Below are positions 2 through 14,655 of a stretch of 26,165 bases of DNA, in pieces. The notes beneath the pieces were generated by a model. It saw only the letters and a program-made list of their open reading frames with translations, did no database searches and had not been told where the DNA came from. The DNA is from a virus: positions 1 through 26,165 of the IMG/VR virus record IMGVR_UViG_3300045286_000110. The stretch is one strand, 5' to 3'. The position numbers were made by a program, and so were the translations under genes. How positions within the stretch are numbered: position 1 is the first letter of the stretch; each line of letters starts with the position of its first letter.

Positions 2-463
2 GGCGGCTCAGCAGCGGCCCGGGGCGGAAACGCTACCTCGTCAACAAGTTCGCAGTCCGGCGACGCCTTGTCATCGAGCACCGGCGGGTCGAACGCTTTC
101 AGCGACAACAGCCGAAGCTTCGGCTACGTCTTCCCTGCGCCTGTTTACGCCACACCGTTACCGGCTAACCTGTGCCCGAAGGGTGACAGCATCGCCTGGT
201 CGATCGGCTGGAACTTCTTCAGCTACGCCCGCAGCAGCACGCGTACCGAAATCGAATGCCTGGACAAGTGGCTCGAAGCGAATCGTCGGCCCCCGCCGCC
301 CGAGCCACGCATCGTCATCGTTCCTGGTGAACCGATTCATCCCCCTGCCGCCATACCCCCGGCACCTGCCGAGCCGGCGCCCATCAAGAAGCCCGTAGCC
401 AAGAAAGTAAAGTCTCCGTGCCCTGCAGGGCAGACGAAGCAATGCGTCCCGACTGGTCGCTGA
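2..463 (+). CDS. Partial Ser/Gly- and Pro-rich protein, truncated by left edge
   Basis: The frame is open from base 2 to the stop ending at 463, giving 153 visible residues with no convincing start codon; the first start-like codon is a TTG at 68. The gene therefore begins left of the window. The visible N-terminal part is low-complexity, rich in Ser, Gly, Ala, Thr and Asn. The middle has a compact segment with two cysteines (around NLCPKGD and IECLDKW). A proline-rich stretch (PPPPEP) follows, then a basic tail with two more cysteines. The Cys pattern and Pro-rich tail would suit an exported or virion-exposed protein, but no signal peptide can be judged without the N-terminus. I do not recognise the family. 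It overlaps the next gene by 22 bases, so it is probably part of the same transcript. Confidence 0.6.
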   Translation, partial: GGSAAARGGNATSSTSSQSGDALSSSTGGSNAFSDNSRSFGYVFPAPVYATPLPANLCPKGDSIAWSIGWNFFSYARSSTRTEIECLDKWLEANRRPPPPEPRIVIVPGEPIHPPAAIPPAPAEPAPIKKPVAKKVKSPCPAGQTKQCVPTGR

Positions 464-1044
464 ACACCGCGGTTGTCGTCGGTGCAGGCCCGAGCCTCAC
501 CAGCGAGCAGCTGCTGCACGTACAGCACGCTGACTTCGTGCGCGTCATCGCGGTGAACAACGCGTACAAAATGGCGCCCTGGGCCGACGTGTTCTACGGC
601 GGTGATTTCCTGTGGTGGAAGAAGCACTTCGCGCGCATCAAAGCCCTCAAGGTCGGCGCGCAGCTTTGGACACAGGACGGTGCTGTGGCCGAACGTTGGC
701 AGATCAACCGCATCCGCGGCGTGAACCGAGAGGGGCTTGGCCGCCATGACATCCACATGGGTGGCAACTCCGGCTACCAGGCTGTCAATCTGGCCTTCCT
801 GTGGGGCTGCAAGCGCATCCTGCTGCTCGGCTTCGACATGAAGGAAGGTCCGAACGGTGAGAAGCACTTCGATGGCGACCACGAAGAGCCGCTGGTGCAA
901 CGACAGACCTTTGACCAGTGGCTCTTGCGTTTCGAGAAGATGGCCACCGACCTGAAAAGCGTGGGCGTATCCGTCACCAATTGCACGCCGGGGAGCGCGT
1001 TGAAGTGCTTCCCGGTGGCTGACATCAGCGAGGCTTTGCGATGA
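442..1044 (+). CDS. GT42/DUF115-like Rossmann-fold protein, putative glycosyltransferase
   Basis: This encodes 200 residues from the ATG at 442; an upstream in-frame GTG at 418 would lengthen it but extends further into the previous gene. Residues 10-19 contain a nucleotide-binding-type motif (VVVGAGPSL), residues 128-133 read LLGFDM, and near the C-terminus there is NCTPGSALKCFP. This order (GxGPSL at the N-terminus, SGYQAVNLA then a GFDM strand mid-protein, a Cys-containing end) is that of CstI/II-type sialyltransferases (GT42) and DUF115/MptE-like proteins. It probably binds a nucleotide sugar or similar nucleotide, but the exact reaction is not readable. It overlaps the previous gene by 22 bases and the next by four (ATGA), and it opens the glycan cassette. 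Confidence 0.75.
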   Translation: MRPDWSLNTAVVVGAGPSLTSEQLLHVQHADFVRVIAVNNAYKMAPWADVFYGGDFLWWKKHFARIKALKVGAQLWTQDGAVAERWQINRIRGVNREGLGRHDIHMGGNSGYQAVNLAFLWGCKRILLLGFDMKEGPNGEKHFDGDHEEPLVQRQTFDQWLLRFEKMATDLKSVGVSVTNCTPGSALKCFPVADISEALR

Positions 1045-1202
1045 CCAAAGAAGAAGTCGCCGTCTACGAGATCGTCAGTTCGCCCTTTCGCTTCCTGTTC
1101 AACATCGCGTGGACGCAGCCGATCTTCGGCCGTTGGTTCGCGGCGCGTGTCAACGCGAAGTGGGATCGGTACCAGGCCTTCTTGCGGAGGAATCCGCAGT
1201 GA
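1041..1202 (+). CDS. Small coupled protein of the glycan operon (53 aa)
   Basis: This encodes 53 residues. The ATG at 1041 overlaps the preceding stop as ATGA, and its own stop overlaps the next GTG start as GTGA, so it fills the gap between two genes exactly. The protein is rich in aromatic and basic residues, with Phe and Trp clustered in the middle (FRFLF, AWTQPIFGRWF) and an Arg-rich C-terminus (FLRRNPQ). The middle could form a short amphipathic or membrane-associated helix, but it is too short and interrupted to call a membrane segment. Function unknown. The exact stop/start overlaps on both sides are the main evidence that it is real. Confidence 0.7.
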   Translation: MTKEEVAVYEIVSSPFRFLFNIAWTQPIFGRWFAARVNAKWDRYQAFLRRNPQ

Positions 1203-1966
1203 AACTCGCTGTCCTCAACATCCGCCAAGAGCCGTACTACCGGCGCAACGCTTTCGAGCAGGGGCTGAAGCGGCTTGGCTACACGCTGATCCCGCAGCCT
1301 CCTGCACGGCCTGAGCTCAGCCGCGATAGCCTGCTGATCTCCTGGAACCTCAAGCGAGGCGCTGAAGAAGAGGCGGCACGTGACTGGGAACGCCGCGGCG
1401 GCACAGCTATCGTGGTCGAGAACGGCTACTTGCAGAAGATAGACAAGTCGCGCTACGCCATAAGCACGCACGGCCACAACGGCTCGGGCTGGTTTCCTGT
1501 AGGCGACGAGGACCGTTTCACGTCGCTGGGCTTCGCGTTGAAGCCATGGCACGAGAAAGGCACGGAGATCTTGGTGCGTGGTCAGCGCGGCATCGGTTCA
1601 AGCATCATGGCCAGCCCGCCGCAGTGGGGCGAGAAGATGACCGAGAAGCTACGCGCACGAGGCGCGAAAGTGCGTTTCATCCCACACCCAGGCAACTTGG
1701 CGCCACGGGTGCCTGAAGACGAAGACCTGAAGAACGCGAAAGAGCTCCACATCTGGTGCAGCGCGATGGGCGTGCGTGCGCTTGTTGAAGGCGTACCGGT
1801 GAAGCATCATGCACCGTACTGGGTGTGTGGTCTCGCCTGCGCCATGGGTGCCCGTGAAGCAGCGTTGCATGAGATGTCGCACGGACAGTGGCACTTCGAG
1901 GAGATCGCCACGGGCGAGCCGTTTGCGCGCATGGCCGTCAAAGACTGGGGGCCTCGGTGGCCTTGA
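1199..1966 (+). CDS. Putative GT-B/capsule-polysaccharide-type glycosyltransferase, copy 1
   Basis: This encodes 255 residues from the GTG at 1199, which is preceded by a strong GGAGG eight bases upstream and overlaps the previous stop as GTGA; this settles the start. Residue landmarks are VVENGYL, a GHNGSGWFP loop, the block LGFALKPWHEKGTEILV, QRGIGSS, a HPG motif, and near the C-terminus ELHIWCSAMGVRALVEGVPV. The last block (a strand, Ser/Ala-Gly turn, then helix and EGVP) is the donor-side arrangement seen in GT-B enzymes of the capsule polysaccharide/Kdo-transferase-like type. Function is inferred from this pattern and from the neighbours. It is paralogous to the next gene: the ENGY/DNAY, PW/DW and EGVP blocks align in the same order. 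Confidence 0.65.
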   Translation: MKLAVLNIRQEPYYRRNAFEQGLKRLGYTLIPQPPARPELSRDSLLISWNLKRGAEEEAARDWERRGGTAIVVENGYLQKIDKSRYAISTHGHNGSGWFPVGDEDRFTSLGFALKPWHEKGTEILVRGQRGIGSSIMASPPQWGEKMTEKLRARGAKVRFIPHPGNLAPRVPEDEDLKNAKELHIWCSAMGVRALVEGVPVKHHAPYWVCGLACAMGAREAALHEMSHGQWHFEEIATGEPFARMAVKDWGPRWP

Positions 1967-2703
1967 CGCTTCATCCTGTCGCCGGCAAGTTGAAGTCGGT
2001 GGTCATCTGTGACGCCTTCGCTGCCGGCGCACCGAAGAACGCAGAGGGTGACGTGTTTTTCGGAGTCAACGACAGCAACGTGGCGGCCTATCGTCGCGCG
2101 CTCAGAGAAGGCCACGACTGGTACTACATCGACAACGCGTACATCGACAAGTGGCGTGGCACGTACTTCCGGGTCACGAAGAACGCGCTGCAAGTCGACA
2201 TCCGAGACAAGGCCTCTGACGGCAAGCGCTTCGCTGCTCTGGGTGTGCCCATCAAGGATTGGCGCAAGACGCCAGGAGCACGGATCCTGCTGTGCGCGCA
2301 GTCTGAGTCGTTCATGCGAACGGCAGTCGTCGGGTATCGAGGCACCTGGGTCGACAACGTGTTGACGCAGCTGGAGAGTTTTCCACACCACTACCCGATC
2401 CGCGTGCGCCCGTGGAGTCCCGACAAGATCAAAGTGAGCATCGCCTTATTGGATGAACTGCCGGAACTCCACCTACTGGTCACGCACTCTTCGGCCGCAG
2501 CTATCACAGCGCTGCTCGAGGGTGTGCCAGCCATCAGCGAAGCCGGCGCAGCACACCACTTGACAGGCAAGTTGACGCGCGAAAGCGTGGAGAACCCACC
2601 CCAACCTGCAGGCCGTGAACACTTCGCTGCTGTGTTGGCCGACAATCAGTTCACTCTCGCGGAATTCAAGAAAGGCTTGGCATGGCGACACCTCAACCCG
2701 TGA
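1957..2703 (+). CDS. Putative GT-B/capsule-polysaccharide-type glycosyltransferase, copy 2
   Basis: This encodes 248 residues if translation starts at the GTG at 1957, ten bases inside the previous gene. A TTG at 1963 (overlapping the upstream stop) is an alternative, so the start is uncertain by a few codons. Landmarks are VVICDAFAAGAP, FFGVND, DWYYIDNAYIDKW, RFAALGVPIKDWRK, ARILLCAQSES and LVTHSSAAAITALLEGVPAI. The final block is typical of the donor-binding half of GT-B capsule/Kdo-transferase-like proteins. The order of blocks matches the preceding gene, so the two look like a tandem duplication that has diverged. It is probably a sugar transferase acting in the cytoplasm; no membrane segment is seen. 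It overlaps the next gene by 22 bases. Confidence 0.65.
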   Translation: MALTLHPVAGKLKSVVICDAFAAGAPKNAEGDVFFGVNDSNVAAYRRALREGHDWYYIDNAYIDKWRGTYFRVTKNALQVDIRDKASDGKRFAALGVPIKDWRKTPGARILLCAQSESFMRTAVVGYRGTWVDNVLTQLESFPHHYPIRVRPWSPDKIKVSIALLDELPELHLLVTHSSAAAITALLEGVPAISEAGAAHHLTGKLTRESVENPPQPAGREHFAAVLADNQFTLAEFKKGLAWRHLNP

Positions 2704-3245
2704 AAGAAGGCTGGTTCCACACACCGGGTCGCCCGGGTGATCGGCGCCTCGACCAACAACTGACCGGTCTCTATCCAGCGCTTGCCTATTGCGTCAACAA
2801 ATCGATTCTCGATGTGGGTTGCGCAGAAGGCCTCATTTCGCACTCACTCGCCGAACGCGGTGCTGCTGCCGTTCATGGCTTGGAGATCGTGCCAGGGCAC
2901 GTCGAGGTAGCCAACAAATTTCGTGGAGATCTCCCCTGCACGTTTGAAGTGGCAGACGTCAACGACTACGTGCCGGTGCGACGCTACGATATCGTGCTTC
3001 TGCTGGGGATCCTGCACAAGTTACGCGATCCAAGTGCTGTGTGCCGTCGATTTGCTGCCGCGGCACGATCGATGGTCGTCATACGCTTGCCACCCGTCCG
3101 AGCACCATTCATCGTTGACCCCCGATCCGACAATCGGCCCCACGACATCGAAGCCGTCATGGATGACGCCGGCTTCAAACGCATGAGCGTCGGTTGTGGG
3201 CACTTCAACGAGTGGGTCGGCACGTATAGGAGAAAAGTGCTGTGA
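2682..3245 (+). CDS. Class I SAM-dependent methyltransferase
   Basis: This encodes 187 residues from the ATG at 2682, with AAAGG just upstream inside the preceding gene. SAM-binding motif I is ILDVGCAEG at residues 42-50, followed by the acidic motif II region (HGLEIV). Motif III corresponds to VADVND, and YDIVLLLGILHKL is the post-motif strand and helix. This is a complete small class I Rossmann methyltransferase without extra domains. Given that it lies among glycosyltransferases, methylation of a sugar or glycan is the most likely role, but the substrate cannot be read from the sequence. It ends by overlapping the next GTG start as GTGA. Confidence 0.85.
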   Translation: MATPQPVKEGWFHTPGRPGDRRLDQQLTGLYPALAYCVNKSILDVGCAEGLISHSLAERGAAAVHGLEIVPGHVEVANKFRGDLPCTFEVADVNDYVPVRRYDIVLLLGILHKLRDPSAVCRRFAAAARSMVVIRLPPVRAPFIVDPRSDNRPHDIEAVMDDAGFKRMSVGCGHFNEWVGTYRRKVL

Positions 3246-3763
3246 GGGAAGCCCTCATCCCCCTGTATCGCCAGATGGCGGCCGAAGGCCTGAACTTCAT
3301 GGGCCTGTCGATCCTTCAGCATGCTGAAGTCATCGGCACGCTGGTCAAACGTCACGGCGCCCGCCGGCTGCTCGACTATGGTTGCGGCAGAGGGGATGCC
3401 TACCGCGAGCCACACTTCCTGCACCGCAAATGGAAGCTTCGGTGGTTCGATGTTGAACTGTACGACCCCGCGTTCCCTGAGACCGAAGAGAAGCCGCATG
3501 GCAAGTATGACGGGGTGCTGTGCAGCGATGTACTCGAGCACGTCTACGAAGACGAGCTCGATGCGCTGATCGAAACGCTCTTCGCGCATGCTCGCACTTT
3601 CGTGTGGGCTTCGGTGTGCTGCCGTGAAGCGAAAAAGTTCTTCCCCGACGGTGTGACGAACCTGCATGTCACGGTGAAACCAATGGACTGGTGGCGGGCA
3701 AAGTTCCAAGAGCACTCGCTGAAGAACCCGGAGTTGTCGGTGTACTTGACGGAGACGCCGTGA
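3242..3763 (+). CDS. SAM-dependent methyltransferase, second type
   Basis: This encodes 173 residues from the GTG at 3242, which overlaps the previous stop as GTGA and has AGGAG nine bases upstream. Motif I is LLDYGCGRG at residues 43-51, followed by a segment with VELYDPAF. The sequence YDGVLCSDVLEHV is the usual strand preceding the active-site region of class I methyltransferases of the methyltransf_23 kind. Two adjacent cysteines (VCCREAKKFFPDG) and a MDWW motif lie towards the C-terminus. It is not close to the preceding methyltransferase beyond the shared fold, so the operon carries distinct enzymes rather than a recent duplicate. The acceptor is unknown; a glycan is inferred from context. 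Confidence 0.82.
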   Translation: MREALIPLYRQMAAEGLNFMGLSILQHAEVIGTLVKRHGARRLLDYGCGRGDAYREPHFLHRKWKLRWFDVELYDPAFPETEEKPHGKYDGVLCSDVLEHVYEDELDALIETLFAHARTFVWASVCCREAKKFFPDGVTNLHVTVKPMDWWRAKFQEHSLKNPELSVYLTETP

Positions 3764-4506
3764 TGGGAATCGGTGATGCGATCATGGCCGCGGGCGAAGC
3801 GCGCGTGCTGTACGAACAGCAGAAACTACCAGTGCTGATCACCGGCATCGACGGCCGTCCACGGTGGTCTGAGGTGTATGAGGGCAACCCTTACCTGATC
3901 AAGTGGAATCAGCGCGCACGCCGGCACGTTCGGATGGTCAACGGCCCACACGCGCGACCCTATATCGCCGGCAAGACTGCGAAGCAATGGGAGTGGAAGC
4001 CCTACCGTCCCAAGCTGGCTGAAGTCTTTCTCACCGACACCGAGAAGGCTTTCGCCGAGCCATACCGTGGCCTGATCATGATCGAGCCCAACGGCAAAGC
4101 CATCGGCCACAACAACAAGTTGTGGTTGTGGGATCGGTGGGAGCAGTTGGTGCAAGGTTCGACGCTGAAGTTCGTGCAGTGCAACTACGGCCCTGGTGGG
4201 GGATTGTTGGGCGTCACCAACGTGGTGACGCCAACCTTCAGGCATGCCATGGCCGTACTGTCGGTCGCCAGGGCCTTCGTGGGCATCGAGGGCGGCCTCA
4301 TGCATGCCGCGGCCGCATTGGGCGTGCCTAGCGTCATCCTGTGGTCCGAGTTCATCAGCCCGGAGATTACTGGCTACTCGCACTTCAAGAATCTGCGGCA
4401 CGCCGGCAAGCCTTGCGGCATGCGCGTCGACTGCGCCGGTTGCCGTAGATCGATGGAAGCGATCACCGTCCTCGAGGTGGCGCACGCATTGGGGAGTCTG
4501 CTATGA
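3763..4506 (+). CDS. GT9-like (heptosyltransferase-type) glycosyltransferase
   Basis: This encodes 247 residues. I choose the ATG at 3763, which shares its A with the upstream TGA (TGATG) and has GGAG nearby; upstream in-frame starts lie inside the previous gene. The N-terminus MGIGDAIMA is the glycine-rich first loop typical of GT-B heptosyltransferases. Residues 174-189 (GIEGGLMHAAAALGVP) match the GT9 donor-site signature, followed by VILWSEFISPE. The C-terminus has cysteines at 218, 224 and 227. At about 250 residues it is shorter than bacterial WaaC/WaaF-type enzymes (about 320-350), so the N-terminal domain is reduced. It would transfer a sugar from a nucleotide donor in the cytoplasm; sugar and acceptor are unknown. 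Confidence 0.8.
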   Translation: MGIGDAIMAAGEARVLYEQQKLPVLITGIDGRPRWSEVYEGNPYLIKWNQRARRHVRMVNGPHARPYIAGKTAKQWEWKPYRPKLAEVFLTDTEKAFAEPYRGLIMIEPNGKAIGHNNKLWLWDRWEQLVQGSTLKFVQCNYGPGGGLLGVTNVVTPTFRHAMAVLSVARAFVGIEGGLMHAAAALGVPSVILWSEFISPEITGYSHFKNLRHAGKPCGMRVDCAGCRRSMEAITVLEVAHALGSLL

Positions 4507-4706
4507 ATGTCTACCAGGTGAGCGTTGAAGAGTCTGCTAACCGTTTAGGAGACTTCTGCCGCCTCTCCCTGCGTCTGGCACGTGATGCTGAGGCGCGGTT
4601 CAGCCCCAGAGCGCGCATGCTGCAGATCACGTTTGTGTTGGGCGAGCCCGCCCAAAGCGTCGCAGCACTGCTGCGGCGCTTGGCTGATGAGCTGGAGAGA
4701 GCATGA
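4503..4706 (+). CDS. Small coupled protein of the glycan operon (67 aa)
   Basis: This encodes 67 residues between the GT9-like gene and the next small gene, with ATGA overlaps at both ends (4503/4506 and 4703/4706). The protein is mostly predicted helix, rich in Arg, Leu and Ala, with segments such as LSLRLARDAEARF and VAALLRRLADELERA that look amphipathic. No membrane segment, no cysteine pair and no recognised motif is apparent apart from one Cys. An antisense frame over the same bases is open too, but only this frame has the exact overlaps. Function unknown. Confidence 0.6.
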   Translation: MNVYQVSVEESANRLGDFCRLSLRLARDAEARFSPRARMLQITFVLGEPAQSVAALLRRLADELERA

Positions 4707-4960
4707 AGCACGCATTAACCAGAGAAGACATACGCATCATCCGGTATGCTTTCAAACGCTACGAAGACGAGACATTCGCGGGTTCTTCAGGAGACCTATT
4801 CGATGAAGAAAGGTACGCGATGCGCGTGGCGTTACGTCATCTTCCGAAGATGAAAGACCTGCCAGAAGAAAAGGTTCTTGCCACCTATACCTGCGAGGTA
4901 AGGCGCAGCGATCTTCTCGCGTTTCGTAAGTGGAAACAGAAAAGAGGTTTGGAAGAATGA
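4703..4960 (+). CDS. Small charged protein of the glycan operon (85 aa)
   Basis: This encodes 85 residues, starting within the previous stop (ATGA) and ending in an ATGA overlap with the FkbM gene. The product is highly charged with many Lys, Arg, Glu and Asp. It begins MKHALTREDIRIIRYAF and ends in a basic-acidic helix (FRKWKQKRGLEE). No catalytic motif or membrane segment is visible. It could be a small cytoplasmic partner protein. Function unknown; support comes from the coupled overlaps. Confidence 0.62.
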   Translation: MKHALTREDIRIIRYAFKRYEDETFAGSSGDLFDEERYAMRVALRHLPKMKDLPEEKVLATYTCEVRRSDLLAFRKWKQKRGLEE

Positions 4961-5610
4961 AGCAAGTACACGGTTGGTGGTTCCCAAACCACGAGTTGCA
5001 TCTTCCGGTGTGGATGGACCATCCGAAGAACAAGCTTGTGCTCAACGGTCGGCAGGCATATCAGGGCAAGAAGCAACTCGCTGCGCTCAAGTACGTCAAG
5101 CAGCACCGCGTGGCCCTCGACGTCGGTGGGCACATCGGCCTGTGGTCCTACAACCTGGCGCACGAGTTCGCGGCCGTCATCGCCTTCGAACCGGTGGCCG
5201 AGCACCGTGCGTGCTTCGAGAAGAACATGCAAGGCGTCGGCCAGCATGTCCATTTGAAAGCCTTGGCGCTGGGTGCTGAAGCCGGCAGCGTGTCGATCGT
5301 CACCGAAGCCGGCAGCAGCGGCAACTCGACGGTGAAGGGCAAGGGTGACATCCCGATGGTCACGCTCGATAGTCTCGAGATCCACAACGTTGATTTCATC
5401 AAGATCGACTGCGAAGGGTACGAAGAGAACGTGTTGCGGGGTGCCGTCGAGACGATCGAAGCCTTCCGACCCGTCGTCATCGTGGAGCAGAAGCGCGACA
5501 TGGCTTCACGCTTCGGCTTGCCCATCCTCGGCGCGGTGGACTTCCTCAAAACGTTGGGGTACCGTGTCGCGGAAGAGATCTCGGGTGACTACATCATGGT
5601 GCCGACATGA
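4957..5610 (+). CDS. FkbM-family SAM-dependent methyltransferase
   Basis: This encodes 217 residues from the ATG at 4957, which overlaps the preceding stop as ATGA; further in-frame starts upstream lie within the previous gene. Landmarks of FkbM methyltransferases appear in order: motif I ALDVGGHIG (residues 53-61), the strand-end FEP (77-79), a VTLDSL segment, and IKIDCEGYE (148-156) followed by VLRGA. The family is known for O-methylation, often of sugars or polyketide-type glycoconjugates. The protein is complete for the core domain and has no fused glycosyltransferase. Placed between glycosyltransferases, it most likely methylates a sugar hydroxyl of the glycan made here. Confidence 0.88.
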   Translation: MKQVHGWWFPNHELHLPVWMDHPKNKLVLNGRQAYQGKKQLAALKYVKQHRVALDVGGHIGLWSYNLAHEFAAVIAFEPVAEHRACFEKNMQGVGQHVHLKALALGAEAGSVSIVTEAGSSGNSTVKGKGDIPMVTLDSLEIHNVDFIKIDCEGYEENVLRGAVETIEAFRPVVIVEQKRDMASRFGLPILGAVDFLKTLGYRVAEEISGDYIMVPT

Positions 5611-6296
5611 AGGTCTACATCGGCTACGATCCTCGCGAGCACGAAGCCAGCGTTGCCGCTGTCAAGTCCCTACTTAAAGTCACTAACGGCAGAGTCGAGC
5701 CTGAGCTCCTGTGTTTGCCCAAGCTGTATGCCCAAGGGTTGCTGACGCGCGTGCGCGACGAGCGAGGCTCACGTGACTACGATCTCGTTTCCAATGCGCA
5801 CTACAGCACGCGCTTCAACATCAGCCGCTTCTTGACCCCGATTCTGTGCCAAGGGGATTTCGCTCTCTTCGTGGATTGCGACGTCGTCTTCGTGCGCGAT
5901 CCGCGCGAGATGTTGGCCACAGTCAACGAACGGTATGCTGTCAACGTCGTGAAGCACGAGCACCTGCCTACGCGCACCGTCAAGATGATGGGGCAAGCGC
6001 AGAACATGTACCGACGCAAGAACTGGTCGAGTGTGATGCTCTTCAATTGCAGCCATCCCGCCAACCATCGGCTCACGTTGTGGGATGTGAACCATCGGTC
6101 ACGTGAGGAGTTGCACAACTTCTACTGGCTGCACGACGATGAGATCTGTACTCTCACTCTAGCCTGGAATTGGCTTGTCAACGAGCAACCCAAGCCTGAC
6201 AATCTCGGCATCGCGCACTTCACCAACGGAGGCCCTTTCAACGAGGGCTGGCCAGGTGCTCCGCACGATGATCTGTGGCTTAAAGCAAGGGGTTGA
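5607..6296 (+). CDS. GT-A (GT8-like) glycosyltransferase with DxD motif
   Basis: This encodes 229 residues, coupled to the FkbM gene by ATGA (5607/5610). The N-terminus MKVYIGYDPRE is the first strand of a GT-A fold. The metal- and nucleotide-sugar-binding DxD is DCD at residues 90-92 within LFVDCDVVFVRD. Later blocks are KNWSSVMLFNCSH (around 138-150), WLHDDEI, and AHFTNGG near the C-terminus; the last resembles the second metal-binding histidine region of GT8-like enzymes. No membrane segment is present, so it probably acts in the cytoplasm. Donor and acceptor are not readable. It is followed two bases later by the small basic protein that ends the operon. Confidence 0.83.
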   Translation: MKVYIGYDPREHEASVAAVKSLLKVTNGRVEPELLCLPKLYAQGLLTRVRDERGSRDYDLVSNAHYSTRFNISRFLTPILCQGDFALFVDCDVVFVRDPREMLATVNERYAVNVVKHEHLPTRTVKMMGQAQNMYRRKNWSSVMLFNCSHPANHRLTLWDVNHRSREELHNFYWLHDDEICTLTLAWNWLVNEQPKPDNLGIAHFTNGGPFNEGWPGAPHDDLWLKARG

Positions 6297-6298
6297 TC

Positions 6299-6478
6299 AT
6301 GGCCAAGAAGTGGATTGCGGGTGCGATCAAGAACCCAGGCGGTTTGCACCGCGCGCTGGGGGTGCCGGAAGGCAAGAAGATCCCGAAGGGAGAAGTCGCC
6401 GCGGCAGCCAAGCGGCCGGGCAAGGTGGGCAAAGAAGCTCGCCTGGCGCAGACCCTGGGCAAGATGCACAAGAAGTGA
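6299..6478 (+). CDS. Small very basic protein (59 aa), last gene of the plus-strand operon
   Basis: This encodes 59 residues from the ATG at 6299, preceded by AAGGGG with a six-base spacer. The protein is strongly basic (start MAKKWIAG, end KMHKK) with few acidic residues, a VPEGKKIPKGE segment in the middle and a helical basic C-terminus. Lys-rich miniproteins of this kind are frequent in phage genomes and are often of unknown function; nucleic-acid or virion binding is conceivable. The stop ends at 6478, two bases from the end of the convergent Rz gene. Confidence 0.72.
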   Translation: MAKKWIAGAIKNPGGLHRALGVPEGKKIPKGEVAAAAKRPGKVGKEARLAQTLGKMHKK

Positions 6479-6501
6479 TCTAGCGCGGCCAGGCCGCTAG
6501 A
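6479..6501. terminator. Hairpin at the convergent operon junction, possible bidirectional terminator
   Basis: The bases TCTAGC at 6479-6484 pair with GCTAGA at 6496-6501. The stem continues with two more G-C pairs across a two-base bulge, leaving a five-base loop. The hairpin begins just after the plus-strand stop (6476-6478) and overlaps the minus-strand stop of Rz (6480-6482). There is no T-run on either side, so this is not a canonical intrinsic terminator. Its position between converging operons is the reason to suspect a role in ending or stabilising both transcripts. Confidence 0.4.
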
Positions 6502-6974
6502 AGCGCTCGCACGGCGTCGCCGTTATCTTCAGCGTCTCTTGTACGGTCTGCATCAGACTGCAATGCTTTTGCCAGTAGGCCCCCGAGGGCAGCGGCGCGG
6601 CTACTGCAGGCGGCGACGGTATCTTCGGTGGGGCCACCACTACTGGCGGCATAGGCGGCGAGTTGGTCGCGCAGCTTGTCATTGCCAGCCCGAGCAGCAG
6701 CCAGAGCAGCAGCATTCTTGCGTTGTGATGCGTTGTACTCATTCTGCGCTTGCTCCTTGACGGCGGCCATCTGTTGCTCGAGCTTACGGTACTTCTCGGT
6801 TTCCTTGGAAGCCGTTTCTGCCGCCTCCGCGCGGGAAACAGCCCAGGCCTTCTGAACTTCAGCAAGGTGTACCTCCGCGGTACGCAGCCGAACGGTCTGA
6901 ACGCCGATGATGGACAGCAGTACAGCGGCGACGATCAACGGCCCGGCGAGCCGGGCCAACAAGCCGGCGAACAC
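6480..6974 (-). CDS. Rz: Rz-like inner-membrane spanin subunit
   Basis: This encodes 164 residues from a GTG at 6974. An N-terminal membrane segment (about residues 10-28, GPLIVAAVLLSIIGVQ) is followed by a long helix rich in Ala, Glu, Lys and Gln (about 30-105), expected to form a periplasmic coiled coil. A Cys-containing C-terminal region follows. This is the architecture of i-spanins, which join an outer-membrane lipoprotein to fuse the two membranes at the last step of lysis of Gram-negative hosts. The Rz1 gene lies entirely inside it in another frame, which supports the call. It starts just after the small membrane-protein gene, with only a weak ribosome-binding site. Confidence 0.85.
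   Translation of the reverse strand: MFAGLLARLAGPLIVAAVLLSIIGVQTVRLRTAEVHLAEVQKAWAVSRAEAAETASKETEKYRKLEQQMAAVKEQAQNEYNASQRKNAAALAAARAGNDKLRDQLAAYAASSGGPTEDTVAACSSRAAALGGLLAKALQSDADRTRDAEDNGDAVRALLAAWPR
6497..6742 (-). CDS. Rz1: Rz1-like outer-membrane spanin lipoprotein, embedded in Rz
   Basis: This encodes 81 residues from the ATG at 6742, with GGAG about ten bases upstream inside Rz. The protein has a short basic N-terminus, a hydrophobic stretch (MLLLWLLLGLAM) and a lipobox-like end (MTSC), with the Cys as the probable lipidation site. A proline-rich segment follows (PPMPPVVVAPPKIPSPP). This is the classic Rz1 layout: signal peptidase II lipoprotein with a Pro-rich linker to the C-terminal region that contacts Rz. 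The gene is fully nested within Rz in another frame, ending 17 bases before the Rz stop. The -3 residue (Met) is not ideal for a lipobox. Confidence 0.83.
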   Translation of the reverse strand: MSTTHHNARMLLLWLLLGLAMTSCATNSPPMPPVVVAPPKIPSPPAVAAPLPSGAYWQKHCSLMQTVQETLKITATPCERF

Positions 6975-7224: not shown

Positions 7225-7791
7225 TTACGAAAACTTCGCGTAGGCAGCAGCGAGTTTAACGTCGTACTGGTTCGCCGCATAGCCCGGCCCGTTGTATGCC
7301 TTGGCAAAGTCCGCCCAGCGCCGATCGCGCAACTCATCGGCCAGGCCACGGTGCTCAATGAACTCGATGAAGGCCATCAGGTGCTCGTGCTCGCCGAGGG
7401 ACAACGAGTGAACGAATTCATCGACACTGGTGAAGCCGCACATCGGAAAGTTGAAGCCCATGATCTGGAACTTCCCGAAGCTGGTCGACAGCAAGGCGGC
7501 CACGGGATCGAGCTCCACGGCAGCCTTCAGCCGGCAGTGCTCGGCGAACTGGTTCGCGCCGTAGAACTTCCGTGTCCACACCGGATAGCTCAGCGTCGGG
7601 TGCGTCACATCGAAACGGCCTTGTGTGTAGCGATGGAAGTGGTGGCCTTCGAAGAGGATCTTCAGGCTGTCGTCGGCGTTGAAGCCCCCACCAGACGACT
7701 CGACTTCGGCCACCGCTTTGATGGCTGCTACGTCGCAACCCAAGGCGCCGGCAGCCTCTTCGTAATCCGAGTCGATGAGCACGGGCTTCAC
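7225..7791 (-). CDS. Endolysin, N-acetylmuramidase (DUF3380/PF11860-type)
   Basis: This encodes 188 residues from a GTG at 7791 that overlaps the preceding stop as GTGA. The sequence runs like the N-acetylmuramidase family of Gram-negative phages: IKAVAEVESSGGGF near residues 24-37 with the likely catalytic Glu (E29 or E31), then ILFEGHHFHRYT, YPVWTRKFYG, a SFGKFQIMGFNF block, and FAKAYNGPGYAANQYDVKLAAAY at the C-terminus. It should cleave the glycan chains of peptidoglycan. There is no N-terminal signal or membrane anchor, so release through a holin is expected. It is a single-domain enzyme without a separate wall-binding domain. Confidence 0.9.
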   Translation of the reverse strand: MKPVLIDSDYEEAAGALGCDVAAIKAVAEVESSGGGFNADDSLKILFEGHHFHRYTQGRFDVTHPTLSYPVWTRKFYGANQFAEHCRLKAAVELDPVAALLSTSFGKFQIMGFNFPMCGFTSVDEFVHSLSLGEHEHLMAFIEFIEHRGLADELRDRRWADFAKAYNGPGYAANQYDVKLAAAYAKFS

Positions 7792-8228
7792 GGTGCCTTC
7801 TCCGTTGCTGGTGGGGCGCCATCAGGTACACCGTACTTGTGCTGGATGAAAGCTTTGCCTGAAGCCGTAGCGCACCAGAAACCCAAGTACGTCAAGTACG
7901 CTTCGGTCACGATGTTTGGTAGCGCGAAGATGATGATCGTCAGCACCGCGGAAGAAACTACCCAGGTGCCTATCGTGAGAATGCGTTCACTCGAAGCCTT
8001 CCCTTGCGCATCCAGCAAGACTTCAGCGATGTTGAAGGCGGGATCCTTTTGCGCGCGTGCGATCAGCACCCACATCAGGAACACTGCCAGGCCCATGATC
8101 AGCAAGGGCATCATGACACCCACCGTCAGCGATGACACCAGTGCCTCCAGGTAGCCTGGCACTGTCATGCTGGCTGCTGGCGCGCTGGTCGTCACCAGTT
8201 CGGTCAATGCTTTTGCCGCTTCGCTCAT
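7788..8228 (-). CDS. Membrane protein upstream of endolysin, holin candidate
   Basis: This encodes 146 residues. The ATG at 8228 overlaps the small upstream gene as ATGA, and the stop overlaps the endolysin start as GTGA. Two strong membrane segments are visible, about residues 30-57 (GVMMPLLIMGLAVFLMWVLIA) and 83-104 (TIGTWVVSSAVLTIIIFAL). A third, weaker aromatic segment lies around 108-127. The loop between the two strong segments is charged (ARAQKDPAFNIAEVLLD). Coupling to the endolysin makes a holin or antiholin role plausible, but the segment spacing is wider than in most class II holins. I do not recognise a named holin family. Confidence 0.7.
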   Translation of the reverse strand: MSEAAKALTELVTTSAPAASMTVPGYLEALVSSLTVGVMMPLLIMGLAVFLMWVLIARAQKDPAFNIAEVLLDAQGKASSERILTIGTWVVSSAVLTIIIFALPNIVTEAYLTYLGFWCATASGKAFIQHKYGVPDGAPPATEKAP

Positions 8229-8398: not shown

Positions 8399-8719
8399 TC
8401 AATGCCCTTGGCCTTTCAGCCACGTTGCGAGTAGCGCCCAGCCACCGATGTAGTAGATGATCATGCCGACGCCGACGATGAAGATGGCCTTGCGGAACAA
8501 CGCGCCGATGAAGTTGAAGGTGAACCTGCCAGCTTGGCGCTGCGCACCATCCTTCATCGCGCTGAAGGCTGCATCCCACGTTGCGGGGTCTTCGACGACA
8601 GTGCGAATCCCTTTGGAAATTGCTTGCTCGATCATTTCGGACATCCCTCGCTCAATTGCATCTTGGCGTAGCTTCAGGAAGATGATCTGTTCGCTCGCGG
8701 CCTCACGTTCCTCGTCCAC
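8399..8719 (-). CDS. Membrane-anchored helical protein (about 106 aa)
   Basis: This encodes 106 residues if it starts at the GTG at 8719, six bases after a GGAGG. In-frame GTG (8725) and TTG (8731) starts are alternatives. The gene overlaps the end of the large ejection-protein gene. The N-terminal two-thirds is charged and helical (EREAASEQIIFLKLRQDAIERG), followed by one membrane segment near the C-terminus (about residues 74-98, FIVGVGMIIYYIGGWALLATW). It may belong to the lysis genes or to the internal virion set. A tail-anchored membrane protein just before a lysis cassette could be a holin partner, but no family is recognised. Confidence 0.68.
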   Translation of the reverse strand: MDEEREAASEQIIFLKLRQDAIERGMSEMIEQAISKGIRTVVEDPATWDAAFSAMKDGAQRQAGRFTFNFIGALFRKAIFIVGVGMIIYYIGGWALLATWLKGQGH

Positions 8720-11700
8720 TTCCACCTCCAAAGGCCATCAACTTTTCTGAGCGCATTTGACCGGTATTTTTCTCCGGGTTCAGCATGTCGTTGAGTGCCT
8801 TCAGGATCGGCGCATCTGAGCGCAGACCGACGGTGTCTTTGATGTGCGCGAACATCTCGGTGAGCCATTGTCGCGCTTGCGCACGCCAAGAGCCTCGGCC
8901 AGTGAAGCGTTCGTGCATGATACGCGCGCCATTGACAGCCCAGAACTCGGACGGGTCAACGTACTGGTAGAACTCGTTGGGGTCGATCACTTCATCTTTG
9001 ACGACTTGGCGAACACGCGTCTGGGCTTCCGTGTCCCCGCGCGCGGCCTTACGCATGTCCTCGAGCGCTGTTCTCTGCTCCGGCGTCGCCTTGGCCATCG
9101 CGTCATCGCGCGCACGCTCCCAAGCACGACGGATCCCCTCCTGCACCGCTTCCGGCATCATGCGCTCACTGTGATGCAGGACTTCATGCATTGCGGTGCG
9201 GGGATTGTCCTTGCCCTGAACGAGCGTGATGATCTGCGAAGCAGAGTTGTAGCTGCCCTTGGCGATGTTGTCGGCCCGCGCTTCAAGACTCTGGACCTTC
9301 AACCCCTCCATGACACCATCGACGCCGCGGGCCAGATTCGGATTCTTCCCGAGCGCCCACAAGGCAAGCGCAGCACCATCCTTGTCGATCGTGCCTTTGG
9401 CAGCACCATCTTCGAGGACCTTGCGCACTGCAGCGAGTCCGCGCCCACTAGGCGGCGGCGCTTCCTTCAACTGCGTGCGCTGTTGCTCGCGCATGAAGGC
9501 TTCATCGATCTTCGGCAACGCGATGTCTAGAGCTTCATGCCCCCCTGCAGTTTCGGTAGGCTTACCACCATTGGCGGCTGCGGTGCTGCCACCCCCGGCT
9601 TCTCGCTCGCCTTGTCCGCCGGCAGGCGCAGTTTGGCTGCGTTCGGTTCCGGTCGCTGCAGCGCGGTTGGCCCCGGATTGTTCGCCGGTGGCTGCAGTTG
9701 CGCCAGCGGCTTGGACATTGGCAGCGGCAGGCTCTTGGCCAGCGCCAGCAGTTTGCTTGGTTTGAGCATCATTGGACTCACCTTTCTCGATGATCGCTTC
9801 AATCGCTTTTGCGTAGCGTGCAGGGCTGCTCTCGTGCTTCTTGGTCAACTGCTCGACGGCTTCTGGATCGATCCGGTGCGCTAGGGAGACCCGCTCGACC
9901 AACTTGGCGTTCTCGGTGCCGTGCTGCTTGCCGATGGCTTTCACCGCGGCGTCGTACGCCTTGGTGTTGGGCAGTTCCTTGACTTCAGGCACCGGAATCG
10001 GCTCGGGCTTGGGCTCGGCCGCCTTTGCCTGCTGTTGGCGCGCTAGCGCCGCTTCAGGCGTCTGCATGGCTGCGCCGGTGGCCGCGGTAGCACCAACCTC
10101 TTTGGGAGCGCCTGCGATCATCGTCTCGGGCAGATCCGGCCGGCCGGGGACGGCAGGAATTTGCAGCCCCTGGCGCAAGTCTTTGGCCGGGCCTGTCGTC
10201 GGCCGTGGTTCACCCAGCGCTGGCACCAAACCTTCAGCGGGAAGCGCTTCCACAGCGGGCCCAGGCGAGGCACCAGGCGTCGTTTCCCAGTTCGGCGTCA
10301 GGTCGCCCAGCGGCCCGGGTTCCGGCGCAGCCTTGGGCGCCTGGTTGACACCCAGACTGGTGGTGGGCTCGGCAGGAGCGGCCGCAGGTTCTGGCGCCTT
10401 GGGCGCAGCTTTCAACGGCTTCCCACCAGCCATGCGCTTCTGCGCGAATTCACTGCCCAACAATGCTCGCGCGGCTGGCCGAGCGAAGATCGCTGCCCCT
10501 CCCGCAAGCGCCGAGGGAGCGTGGATTAGCGCGCCGAGTACGATGTCGTGGAAGGTGGGCCCGGTAGCGCCGGAGCGACCCTTCTTCTGCGCCAGACCTT
10601 CGTCACCGAACTGCTTCGCGAACTGAGCAATCTGAAGCGCTTCGCCTGTCAGCGGCACGCCTTTGTCCAAAGCACGCCCATAGACTCTCGCATTCACCTC
10701 GCCCGGTTTGCCATCCATGGCATCGTCGAGCAGGTATGTCTTGGCGATGCGCACACGCGCAGCACGGTACTTGTCAACAGCATCAACGAGTTCTGGGTCT
10801 CCCCCTGCATTGGCCATCTTGCCCAGTGCACGATCCATCGCGTTGTCGACAGCCGAAGAGGCTGCGCGGTAATCCACACCCAGCTTTTTGTCGCCGGCAC
10901 GGAAAGCCTTGTCGGCTTCGTTGCGCAGATCCTTCACCACTTCGATCGCTGATGAGGTGCTCACCTCTTCTTTGCGCAGCCCTTCAATCTTTTTGATGAT
11001 CGGGTTGTCTGCGAGCTCCGGGAAGTCTTCCGCAGCTTTCAACCGGGGGCCGATGATGGCATCAAGATCTTTGCCATACTGGCTATCGAGCTCGAACTTA
11101 CCCACGTCCTTGACGGCGGCGTAATCTTGCCCTGCTTCCTTGCGGATCGCTGCAGTGGCCTCGGGTGTAGCTGGCACATCTTCAGGCAAGCCAACATCTG
11201 CGCGCGCTAGACGTGCAGTATTCTCGGCATTGTGCGCTGAGAGTTCTTGCGCTAGCCGTGGTGCCCCTGCAGCCGTCTCGGCCACACGTGCTGCCACTCC
11301 TGCTTTCGCCGCCTTCGGTGAAAGCTTATAGCCCGCATCGTAGGCAGCGCGAATGCCCTCGAGTTCAGGTTGTGCGAGTTTTTCTTTGGCTACTGCGGCA
11401 GCAACCTTCGTCGCAGCAGCGGCAGTCTGCGGGCGCAGTGTCCCGGTTTCTTGCGCTGCACGCGCCACAGTACCTAGCCCTTTGCCAAGCATGCTGACCT
11501 CGGGGCCAAGACCCATGAGCGCAGGCCCGTGTGTCGCCAGTGCTTCCCCGACGGCACCGAGTTGCTCCTGCCCGCTTTCCGTCCGTGGTGCATACGTTCC
11601 TGCTTGCATGCCTGTGAGGAAAGCTTGTTCAGCTCCCGGACGCTTTGAGATGTCCTTGCCTTGCAATGCATTGGCGAGCCTAGCGCCGATCTCGTTGGCC

Positions 11701-12176
11701 ACACCGAGAATGCCGCCGGCCATCCCTGTGGTGCCGCCTGAAAGTACGGACAACCCTGTTTCAACGCTGCCGAGAATCGTGTCCAGTGGCCCAGGTTTAG
11801 GCTTCGCAGCCTGCGCCTGCGCTTCTGCCTGTACGCGCCCTGCCGCTTCCGGTTCTTGAGGGAGCTGGAAACCTGTGCCGGGAGTTCCTTGCGGCGCAGC
11901 AGCCGCAGGGCTTTTCTTGGTGTAGTTCTCCCACGGTGGCCGTTCAGCCGCTGTCGGTTGCGACTGTTTTTGCGCTTCGGCTACCAGGAGAGCACGTCGC
12001 TGAGGGTCGTGCTCTCCTGCGATGGCGTCGTACAGATCCCCAAGATTCTGCGGGCCCTTCTCGTAAGCATCGCTGCGTGCTCGTTCTTCAGGTGTTTCCA
12101 CCGCAGCCAAGCGCAACCCCGCCATCGCAGGATCTTGTCCTGGAGAGGCTTGGTACGCTTCCCACGGGCCGGCCAT
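8703..12176 (-). CDS. Large internal virion/ejection-type protein with HExxH metallopeptidase domain
   Basis: This encodes 1157 residues from the ATG at 12176, which shares its A with the upstream TGA (TGATG); a GTG three bases earlier is less likely. The N-terminus carries two PWExY-type motifs (GPWEAY and RPPWENY). A Gly/Ala-rich hydrophobic region (about 135-190) and long helical segments follow. A low-complexity region rich in Ala, Pro, Glu and Gln covers roughly residues 590-900. Near the C-terminus, MHEVLHHSE holds HExxH at about 997-1001, and SEFWA about 75 residues later could give the third zinc ligand. Size, composition and position after other internal proteins fit a podovirus ejection protein. 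The usual enzymatic module of such proteins is a lytic transglycosylase; here it appears to be a zinc peptidase. Confidence 0.78.
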   Translation of the reverse strand: MAGPWEAYQASPGQDPAMAGLRLAAVETPEERARSDAYEKGPQNLGDLYDAIAGEHDPQRRALLVAEAQKQSQPTAAERPPWENYTKKSPAAAAPQGTPGTGFQLPQEPEAAGRVQAEAQAQAAKPKPGPLDTILGSVETGLSVLSGGTTGMAGGILGVANEIGARLANALQGKDISKRPGAEQAFLTGMQAGTYAPRTESGQEQLGAVGEALATHGPALMGLGPEVSMLGKGLGTVARAAQETGTLRPQTAAAATKVAAAVAKEKLAQPELEGIRAAYDAGYKLSPKAAKAGVAARVAETAAGAPRLAQELSAHNAENTARLARADVGLPEDVPATPEATAAIRKEAGQDYAAVKDVGKFELDSQYGKDLDAIIGPRLKAAEDFPELADNPIIKKIEGLRKEEVSTSSAIEVVKDLRNEADKAFRAGDKKLGVDYRAASSAVDNAMDRALGKMANAGGDPELVDAVDKYRAARVRIAKTYLLDDAMDGKPGEVNARVYGRALDKGVPLTGEALQIAQFAKQFGDEGLAQKKGRSGATGPTFHDIVLGALIHAPSALAGGAAIFARPAARALLGSEFAQKRMAGGKPLKAAPKAPEPAAAPAEPTTSLGVNQAPKAAPEPGPLGDLTPNWETTPGASPGPAVEALPAEGLVPALGEPRPTTGPAKDLRQGLQIPAVPGRPDLPETMIAGAPKEVGATAATGAAMQTPEAALARQQQAKAAEPKPEPIPVPEVKELPNTKAYDAAVKAIGKQHGTENAKLVERVSLAHRIDPEAVEQLTKKHESSPARYAKAIEAIIEKGESNDAQTKQTAGAGQEPAAANVQAAGATAATGEQSGANRAAATGTERSQTAPAGGQGEREAGGGSTAAANGGKPTETAGGHEALDIALPKIDEAFMREQQRTQLKEAPPPSGRGLAAVRKVLEDGAAKGTIDKDGAALALWALGKNPNLARGVDGVMEGLKVQSLEARADNIAKGSYNSASQIITLVQGKDNPRTAMHEVLHHSERMMPEAVQEGIRRAWERARDDAMAKATPEQRTALEDMRKAARGDTEAQTRVRQVVKDEVIDPNEFYQYVDPSEFWAVNGARIMHERFTGRGSWRAQARQWLTEMFAHIKDTVGLRSDAPILKALNDMLNPEKNTGQMRSEKLMAFGGGSGRGT

Positions 12177-14377
12177 CACTGCACCCGTTCCCAGCTATTC
12201 TGGTCGCCAGGATCACCACCCTTGAAGCGGTAACCACTCTGCACGGCGCCGACTTGCGGAGCTGCCGATGCAGCAGAAGTGGTCGCGGCGGTCACTGAAG
12301 TGCCACGGCCACGACCGAGAGCACGCATCTTGTCGGTGACACTCTGGAGTGCCTCGTTGCCAGCATCACGACCGTTCTTGGCCTCGGTGCGCATTACGCC
12401 GATGATCCCGCGGATCTGCGTTGGCGTCATGTCGGCATTAACGAGCTTGTCGCCTGTCGCTTGCGATTGCACGTGCAACTGTGCATTCGACATTGGCGAC
12501 GTCAGCACTCGTTGGTGCTCACGTGACAAGCCGATGAGCGTAGCTTGCAAGTTGGTGAAGTCAGTGTCGCCCAAGGCCGAGCGAAGGGCGTTGATCGGCT
12601 TGTTGAGGATTGGCGCTCCACCTTTGGCTGCGCCCTTGTCGAGCAAGTCTTCGACCAGTTTGCCTTGCTTATCCAGCGTGCTCTGCAGCTGCTCGACAGC
12701 AGTGACGTACTTCTGCCGATCGCGCATTGTCGCGCTCAAAGCAACCTGTTGTGCGTGCGTTGTGCCAATGTCTTGTGGCTCGAGCCCCATCTCTTTGGCA
12801 AGTTGGGGAACACGCCGCTTCACTGCTTCAATTAAGCCGCTGCCACCCTTGCTGCGCGCAAGACCGATCTGCCAGGTCCGATCACCTGCGATGACGGCTT
12901 TGGCCCAAAAGTCGACTGTCTCCTGGTCTCCGGCGCCTTTGCCGACACTCCCCGCGCCAACAGACAAGGACCCCGGTTCTGCTTCTGCACCTCTCACGCC
13001 AAGCGCGGCAACACGTTTAGCTGCGGCCTTGTCTTCAGGACTCAGTGAAGAGGAATCGATGTCGGCTATTTTTTGTGCGAGGGGGCCGAGCTTCTCAGGC
13101 TTCTCCAAGTTCGGCATCACGCCAATACTTTGCAGGTACTTGACCGAGGTTTCCAGATCCAATCCGTTTTCTTTGGCGTACTGCTGTGCCGTAGCAAGAT
13201 TCTGGGCGAGCGGACCTACAGGTTTCGGCGCTTCAGGCATCTTGCCACCGGTGGCATAGAACGCATTCAGGAAGTTTTGCGGCACGGGGCCTGCATCTTT
13301 GACGCCTTGCTGCAGCTTCGCTTGCGCATCGGGATGCGACAGCGCTGTGGCGAGCACACCCATCTGCCCGATTCGATCCATCGCTTCCTGCATGCTGATG
13401 TGCGCAACAGGATCATTCGGGTCGGTGGAGCGGTTCTCGGTGATCGGAGCGTCATAGTGACCTGTTGCACCGGGAGGGGCGCCGTACTGTGCCTGCTCGT
13501 TCGACTGCATGCGCTGAGACTCACCCACACCGGCTTGCGTGTCACCCTTGCCAACGAAGACACGGACGACCGGAGTTACCTTGGCATTGCTCGCGTCTTG
13601 CGGCGCTCCTTGCGCCGCGGAGGCATCTGGAGGCGCTGGTAGTAGTTTGACGATCTGTTTCCCGACGATGACGCCACCATGCGGACTGGGTTGCCCCACC
13701 CCGACTTTCAACTCAGGCGCGAAGAGACCGTTCACCGACTTGAGCAGCAAGCCTTCGTTGCTGGGGTCATTCATCGCGGCATGCCAGTCATCGAGTTTCT
13801 GCTGGATGGGCATCTTGCCATCCGACCCCGCGATGTAGTCCGTCACCGGCGCGCGCGTGGTGGCCGTCACGGCTTGAACCAATTTTGCGGGCGGAATGCT
13901 TGTGAGATCCAGTTGCCCTGCCTTCGCTTTGGACGCGATGTCCAGCCCTTCTTGCTGGTACTGCTGCGCAGGACCGACGAGTTTCTGCAAGAGTGCATCA
14001 CGCGTTGCCTTCACTTGCGCTTGGCGCTGCGTGTAGCTTGATTGAACCTCCTGGGGGATGTTTTCTGCTGAGCCGTACTGTCTCAGGTACCCAGCACCTT
14101 CCGTTGCCAGGTCACCGAGTTGCATGTTGCTGGCTGCCAAAGCTTCATGCGTCTGCGAAGTGTCGGTCAAGCGATCCTCGCGGGCCTGCCGGCGAGCTTC
14201 GGCATCTTGCGCGCGCTGGTCGGCGGCGGCTTGCCGCTCATTCAGTAGTTGCTGCTGTTGGCGGCGCTCATTCGCAGTGTCGACGTCCATGCCGAGGCGA
14301 ACACCGCTCTCGAGCGAGTTCGCCAGCGCACCGCCAACACTGTAGTGCGAGGGGCCGATTCCGTAACCAGAAGCCAT
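12176..14377 (-). CDS. Internal virion/ejection-type protein (733 aa)
   Basis: This encodes 733 residues from the ATG at 14377 (TGATG with the upstream gene, GGAG eight to nine bases before). An upstream in-frame start at 14431 would lie inside the previous gene. The N-terminus is Gly/Ser-rich (MASGYGIGPSHYSVGGALA). A Gln/Arg/Ala-rich coiled-coil region follows (about 35-75, with QQQQLLNERQAAADQRAQD), then long Ala/Gln/Lys helices. The C-terminus ends in GYRFKGGDPGDQNSWE plus three residues, a short aromatic/Gly motif seen at the ends of internal virion proteins. There is no catalytic motif. It lies between the small glycine-zipper protein and the 1157-residue protein, matching the gp14-gp15-gp16 order of T7-like ejection proteins in general logic only. 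Confidence 0.72.
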   Translation of the reverse strand: MASGYGIGPSHYSVGGALANSLESGVRLGMDVDTANERRQQQQLLNERQAAADQRAQDAEARRQAREDRLTDTSQTHEALAASNMQLGDLATEGAGYLRQYGSAENIPQEVQSSYTQRQAQVKATRDALLQKLVGPAQQYQQEGLDIASKAKAGQLDLTSIPPAKLVQAVTATTRAPVTDYIAGSDGKMPIQQKLDDWHAAMNDPSNEGLLLKSVNGLFAPELKVGVGQPSPHGGVIVGKQIVKLLPAPPDASAAQGAPQDASNAKVTPVVRVFVGKGDTQAGVGESQRMQSNEQAQYGAPPGATGHYDAPITENRSTDPNDPVAHISMQEAMDRIGQMGVLATALSHPDAQAKLQQGVKDAGPVPQNFLNAFYATGGKMPEAPKPVGPLAQNLATAQQYAKENGLDLETSVKYLQSIGVMPNLEKPEKLGPLAQKIADIDSSSLSPEDKAAAKRVAALGVRGAEAEPGSLSVGAGSVGKGAGDQETVDFWAKAVIAGDRTWQIGLARSKGGSGLIEAVKRRVPQLAKEMGLEPQDIGTTHAQQVALSATMRDRQKYVTAVEQLQSTLDKQGKLVEDLLDKGAAKGGAPILNKPINALRSALGDTDFTNLQATLIGLSREHQRVLTSPMSNAQLHVQSQATGDKLVNADMTPTQIRGIIGVMRTEAKNGRDAGNEALQSVTDKMRALGRGRGTSVTAATTSAASAAPQVGAVQSGYRFKGGDPGDQNSWERVQ

Positions 14378-14655
14378 CAAAAGAGCCCTCCAGCGAGCGC
14401 ACCGAGCGCACCGCCTATCAACGAACCCCAAGGCCCAGCAGCGCTACCGAACTGAGCACCAGCCAAGGCGCTGCCGGCCAGGCTGCCGACAACGGTACCA
14501 AGGGACTGGTTGCCTTCTCTCGCAGCTGCTTTTTGCCGTGTGTTGAAGACATTGCGATCTTCTTCTTGTTTCGCAGCTGCTCCCATCAGGCTTGTGGCTT
14601 CCTGTTGCTGGCCTTGGCCGTAGCTGGCCAATGATGCGCCTACGCCAAATGCCAT
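14377..14655 (-). CDS. Glycine-zipper small internal virion protein (92 aa)
   Basis: This encodes 92 residues from the ATG at 14655 with GGGAG upstream. The N-terminal half is helical and hydrophilic (SYGQGQQQEATSLMGAAAKQEED). The C-terminal 40 residues are a Gly/Ala-rich hydrophobic stretch with regularly spaced glycines (SLGTVVGSLAGSALAG, then SLIGGALGALAGG). Glycine zippers of this kind can insert into membranes, which suits a small ejection protein that helps form the DNA channel. Its neighbours are the other internal-virion-type genes. The membrane role is inferred from sequence only. Confidence 0.68.
   Translation of the reverse strand: MAFGVGASLASYGQGQQQEATSLMGAAAKQEEDRNVFNTRQKAAAREGNQSLGTVVGSLAGSALAGAQFGSAAGPWGSLIGGALGALAGGLF

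Follow-up and report, generated by a model that had tools for sequence, protein, structure and literature searches.

A predicted gluzincin-like metallopeptidase domain at the C-terminus of a phage ejection-type protein represents a modular sequence family

Zincin metallopeptidases are the commonest domain of the polyvalent proteins that phages inject into their hosts, and 12 clades of such MPTases have been published (Iyer 2017, PMC5512222). Two roles have been proposed for these domains, namely self-processing, for which DdrB of phage P1 provides a precedent, and attack on the host (Iyer 2017, PMC5512222). The vRNAP of phage N4, a virion-packaged and ejected protein, is packaged unprocessed, and a region encompassing a comparable domain is required for its encapsidation (PMC5512222). 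Ever since N4 vRNAP and P1 DdrB, it has been debated whether phages inject metallopeptidases for self-processing, virion maturation or host attack. These two proteins are large, whereas the domain described below also occurs on proteins of 500–1500 residues and has clear boundaries and catalytic residues, so that short constructs and a single point mutation would allow the question to be tested.

The domain was found in a 26,165-nucleotide fragment of an uncultivated virus (IMG/VR record IMGVR_UViG_3300045286_000110), referred to here as the window. Its carrier, P0001 (Table 1), ends the virion block and is followed by the lysis genes, a location between virion and lysis genes that is also that of the giant protein of Erwinia phage PEp14. 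The ATG start of P0001 overlaps the stop of the adjacent upstream gene, and this neighbour is kept in the same slot order beside the metallopeptidase gene in five related loci (L008, L009, L010, L012 and L013). In tblastn searches, a stretch of P0001 upstream of and separate from the protease matched Xanthomonas phage PBR31 and Acidovorax phage AP1: residues 275–581 share 31% identity with the internal protein C of PBR31 (E 5e-35), whose annotation is itself putative, and 32% with the AP1 protein. By homology (the PBR31 match) and by its place among the internal virion proteins in the gene order, P0001 is classed as an ejection protein, and it is probably injected into the bacterium along with the DNA.

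Table 1. Location of P0001, its parts and the neighbouring genes within the window.
Feature	Position	Strand	Basis or remarks
Ejection-type protein P0001	8703..12176	(-)	1157 aa, ATG start
N-terminal ejection ('internal protein C'-like) module, residues 275-581	10434..11354	(-)	Sequence similarity
Pro-rich linker between head and protease	10032..10319	(-)	45-75% identity among window-type proteins
Linker motif PLGDLTPxWET	10281-10313	(-)	Kept where heads are unrelated
Linker motif IPAVPGRPDLPET	10122-10160	(-)	Kept where heads are unrelated
Metallopeptidase (zincin/gluzincin) domain, residues 904-1147	8736..9467	(-)	tblastn, 72-sequence alignment, AlphaFold2 model, structure comparison
HEVLHH, residues 997-1002	9171..9188	(-)	Two predicted zinc ligands and general-base Glu; invariant 72/72
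SEFWA, residues 1076-1080	8937..8951	(-)	E1077 candidate third zinc ligand; E and W invariant 72/72
Upstream gene, probable internal/ejection protein	12176..14431	(-)	phrog_601, unknown function
Lysis genes after P0001	6480..8228	(-)	Same position as in PEp14
Probable holin	7788-8228	(-)	Sequence appearance and position only
N-acetylmuramidase	7225-7791	(-)	PF11860
Rz-like	6480-6974	(-)	PF10721

The original prediction placed a zinc metallopeptidase at the C-terminal end of this ejection-type protein, reading HEVLHH as an HExxH block and suggesting the Glu of SEFWA, some 75 residues later, as a possible third ligand. Motif, conservation and predicted fold now support this assignment. The position of the HEVLHH block was confirmed, and SEFWA starts 75 residues past the second His of HExxH. 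By composition, 0.013 HExxH motifs would be expected in P0001, which has only 14 His, and one was found. The motif is not a chance occurrence because HExxHH and the Glu of SE[FY]WA are invariant in 72/72 aligned homologues; the conservation of HExxH, on which the prediction was said to stand or fall, is thus complete. The positions that never vary in the 72 domains are H997, E998, H1001, H1002, E1004, R1005 and M1007 and likewise Y976, Y1070, E1077, W1079 and W1104. E1077, which is helical in the predicted structure, is the candidate third ligand.

These homologues were collected with a degenerate scan, which yielded 73 IMG/VR loci and two bacterial MAG contigs. Its pattern favoured HH[ST]ERMM; a second scan was therefore seeded with the downstream region only (E[FY]WA[VKI]N), leaving the HExxHH block unused, and HExxHH was present in 79/79 confirmed hits. 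Many of the contigs in this second set overlap the first, so that the scan controls for bias and does not add 79 independent cases. HExxHH is also present in six first-set members that lack HH[ST]ERMM (L007, L028, L038, L051, L053 and L079). Comparison of the window domain with its nearest relatives gave dN/dS values of about 0.13–0.26, which are rough since dS exceeds 1 and is near saturation; on these sequence comparisons, purifying selection acts on the domain. Computational support is good for the domain, for its catalytic residues and for their conservation. Weak extra HExxH stretches were also seen upstream of the main domain in L024, L040, L069 and L080 (HELLHA, HEWGHA, HEVGHI and HEWMHA, respectively), which suggests a second, different zincin in some of the large relatives.

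Structure prediction of the C-terminal region, one of the checks originally proposed, returned the zincin arrangement of HExxH and Glu helices. The AlphaFold2 model computed with the window sequence first (pLDDT 88.6, pTM 0.82) consists, in order, of helices, three short strands, the HExxH helix (110–122 in model numbering), four backing helices and a helix (191–208) that starts at the Glu of SEFWA. A second model, from L015 (pLDDT 89.4), agrees with the first, and both contain the polyvalent-MPTase zincin core of N-terminal helix, three-stranded sheet, HExxH helix and Glu helix. Ranking with VIA-align returned almost exclusively zincins, headed by the catalytic domain of anthrax lethal factor (Z 8.8 and 7.8) and followed by PPEP-3 (7.2), IrrE (5.5–5.7) and, at about 4, thermolysin-type enzymes, LTA4H and plasmid ArdC. 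Absolute Z values are modest, with Z 8–9 just modestly above background, and Foldseek against the PDB gave no significant match on its own (best E about 0.2). The case for a zincin fold therefore rests on the agreement of match list, motif and topology instead of on one match. Taken as predictions, the models give the domain a confident zincin topology, with gluzincins as the best structural matches. Lethal-factor/PPEP-type gluzincins (MEROPS M34) and IrrE (M78) share the predicted fold and the order of catalytic elements with the P0001 domain; at about 10–14% identity, this is a resemblance in fold only and implies no common substrate or role.

At the sequence level, the sole tblastn matches of residues 904–1147 among annotated phages lay in the giants of Erwinia phages PEp14, Stean and Pavtok, at 34% identity across about 244 residues (E about 3e-29). 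No relatives were found among the plasmids searched, Pfam and NCBIfam hold no family model for the metallopeptidase domain, and a sequence search of the PDB returned nothing relevant to it. PHROGs has no domain-level family either, phrog_10089 spanning most of the PEp14 giant. Scattered weak hits to KfrA_N, TerB, CLCA_X and DUF5700 were discarded, as they did not recur consistently from one member to the next. Searching gluzincin and polyvalent-protein metallopeptidase families had been part of the original prediction, and here the outcome was divided: gluzincins lead the structure comparison, but PF18818 (MPTase-PolyVal) gave no window match at E<=10 and is not listed for P0001 or for alignment A2. 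The sequence family is widespread in viral metagenomes, and its members now bear the labels 'hypothetical' or 'DarB-like'.

With the MPTases of Iyer 2017, the P0001 domain has in common the HExxH helix with a Glu on a later helix, the three-stranded sheet and a variable insert between these two helices. Fusions to SLT, ART, methylase–helicase, ddrB-ParB and LPD domains within late-gene proteins of phages occur both among the published MPTases and among the relatives of P0001. What distinguishes the P0001 family are the signatures HExxHHxERMMP and SE[FY]WA, along with the missing PF18818 match in the window. The 'DarB-like' giants of PEp14, Stean and Pavtok carry a homologous domain, and that of PEp14 likewise lies just 5′ of the lysis genes; at 4914 residues, however, it bears SLT, methylase, helicase, LPD37 and LPD39 domains, whereas a single enzymatic domain was detected in the 1157 residues of P0001. 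The C1 domain of N4 vRNAP has an HExxH with an E-F-x-A motif 82 residues further on, compared to 80 in P0001 (PMC12633501). Profile comparison of the P0001 family with N4 C1 was weak (Prob 32–38%, pairwise E about 3e-4): the score of 34.8 compares to a shuffle maximum of 31, and masking of the HExxH block removes the signal. Direct homology to N4 C1 was thus not demonstrable outside the HExxH block. The P0001 domain adds to a class of phage-delivered proteases that had been proposed before; it is a known kind of domain, and what is new is an unmodelled sequence family with a clearer, smaller and modular architecture.

Three arrangements of protease-bearing proteins can be distinguished. In the window type (L008, L009, L013, L079 and L081, and the partial sequences L004, L007 and L082–L084), complete proteins measure 1147–1486 residues and carry the protease at the extreme C-terminal end, with about 6–25 residues after it. 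In the giants, the protease lies mid-protein, usually at a fairly constant 820–1120 residues before the C-terminal end. Apart from the domains of PEp14, where the methylase is of the Eco57I type, companions in the giants comprise ART-PolyVal (L015), GH108 (L073), LPD38 (L010 and L069) and ddrB-ParB (L055, in which about 196 residues alone follow the protease); LPD1 is likewise among the polyvalent domains fused to the protease in relatives. None of the polyvalent domains of the relatives was found in P0001 itself. The third arrangement consists of small proteins of 505–560 residues, again with the protease at the C-terminal end. In five loci (L104, L124, L128, L130 and L153), a conserved gene of 645–1089 residues lies directly 3′ of the small protease gene; the copies of L124, L130 and L153 were run against Pfam and gave no match. 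We also asked whether split genomes break a giant at the protease end; the following gene is roughly as long as the C-terminal part of the giants but has no detectable homology to it, and this idea was dropped.

The heads of window-type proteins vary independently of the protease. The P0001 head is 73% identical to that of L009, yet it has no significant similarity to those of L008, L013, L079 and L081, which have another head in common (about 45–60%). Between L009 and L008, the proteases are 81% identical whereas the heads are without significant similarity. Upstream neighbours are conserved in L008, L009, L010, L012 and L013 (50–59% for orf15111 and orf14657, 28–38% for orf12176), which points to a single slot in the genome whose heads have been exchanged. 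This slot encodes, in L010 and L012, a longer protein with about 876 residues after the protease, LPD38 being identified in L010. Within the slot, the metallopeptidase is what stays constant as the ejection heads before it and the effector tails after it change, an arrangement that is new here. Likewise new is the window-type protease behind a Pro-rich linker with two conserved motifs (Table 1); an obvious guess is that these mark a putative cleavage or docking site.

The reading we favour, and consider probable, is that P0001 is an ejected virion protein with an active gluzincin-type protease that cuts proteins around genome entry; packaging, ejection, activity, timing and substrate are what we infer. 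Zinc would be held by His997, His1001 and Glu1077, and water would be activated by Glu998. P0001 would be packaged in the head and exit with the DNA, and the first substrates may be P0001 itself, within the Pro-rich linker, or its ejectosome partners. Such cleavage could let the compact domain pass or free it from the head, and the freed protease may then act on a host protein. That the domain is retained on proteins without C-terminal cargo argues that freeing such cargo cannot be the only job of the protease. This retention, seen in the window type, also speaks against an enzyme for maturation alone, which would trim polyvalent or ejection proteins while the head is assembled and be dispensable once ejection has taken place. 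The processing of P1 DdrB is a precedent for such an enzyme (PMC5512222), and the fairly constant distance to the C-terminal end in many giants would suit it; N4 vRNAP, packaged unprocessed (PMC5512222), speaks against it as well as against our favoured reading, and we regard pure maturation as unlikely. Somewhat doubtful, if clearly conceivable, is an injected cargo that chiefly cuts a bacterial protein of defence, stress or transcription and is delivered by the head. The swapping of heads on a constant protease cassette (L009/L008) resembles polymorphic toxins, the companion domains of the relatives are effector-like (ART-PolyVal, ddrB-ParB and methylase–helicase), and in some phages the small protein leaves nothing large to process. 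Yet a catalytic domain that is constant across very different phages would require a very conserved target, no host target is known, and the constant-protease pattern also fits a processing enzyme. It seems unlikely that the protease is a mobile, polymorphic-toxin-like podovirus warhead, recombined onto unrelated ejection heads within a single genome slot, self-released at the Pro-rich linker of the window type during ejection and then attacking a host protein.

The original prediction had further suggested that the metallopeptidase stands in for a transglycosylase and might cut peptide cross-links. For the P0001 polypeptide the first part stood, as Pfam detected no SLT or lysozyme domain in it and no transglycosylase in it or the other window ORFs scanned. 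This, and a gene order that puts P0001 at the end of the putative internal proteins, would fit a peptidoglycan peptidase that cuts cross-links for passage of the ejectosome through the wall. The idea of a replacement did not hold, given that the domain coexists with SLT in PEp14 and with GH108 in L073 and that the window encodes its own muramidase; since relatives have both a protease and a peptidoglycan hydrolase, the domain does not stand in functionally for cleavage of the wall. In fold, the domain comes closest to gluzincins that cut proteins, and cross-link cleavage is the least supported of the options and highly improbable. A zincin fold without catalysis, retained for a structural or packaging role, would accord with the N4 region needed for encapsidation (PMC5512222); it is improbable too, as none of the catalytic residues varies among the homologues examined, unlike in typical pseudo-enzymes.

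Several further observations concern the surroundings of the protease. Near the N-terminus of P0001, PWExY occurs twice (PWEAY at residues 4–8 and PWENY at residues 81–85; window 12153–12167 and 11922–11936), and the L146 and L147 giants have it at residue 4 of the ORF. It could be a packaging signal; as an enriched motif it was rejected, with four found in related loci versus 2.6 expected. Between P0001 and the holin-like gene, a small ORF (8399–8731, (-)) contains a hydrophobic stretch, is 71% identical to its L004 counterpart and is possibly a membrane or lysis protein. On the opposite (+) strand, a run of glycan- and methyl-type ORFs (window 418–6478) adjoins the lysis genes and is possibly a surface-glycan or phage-glycosylation cassette. 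It includes an MptE-like match slightly below the cut-off (418–1044), an FkbM methyltransferase (4930–5610; PF05050, E 1e-18) and, by sequence appearance, SAM methyltransferases (2682–3763) and glycosyltransferases (3691–4506 and 5607–6296).
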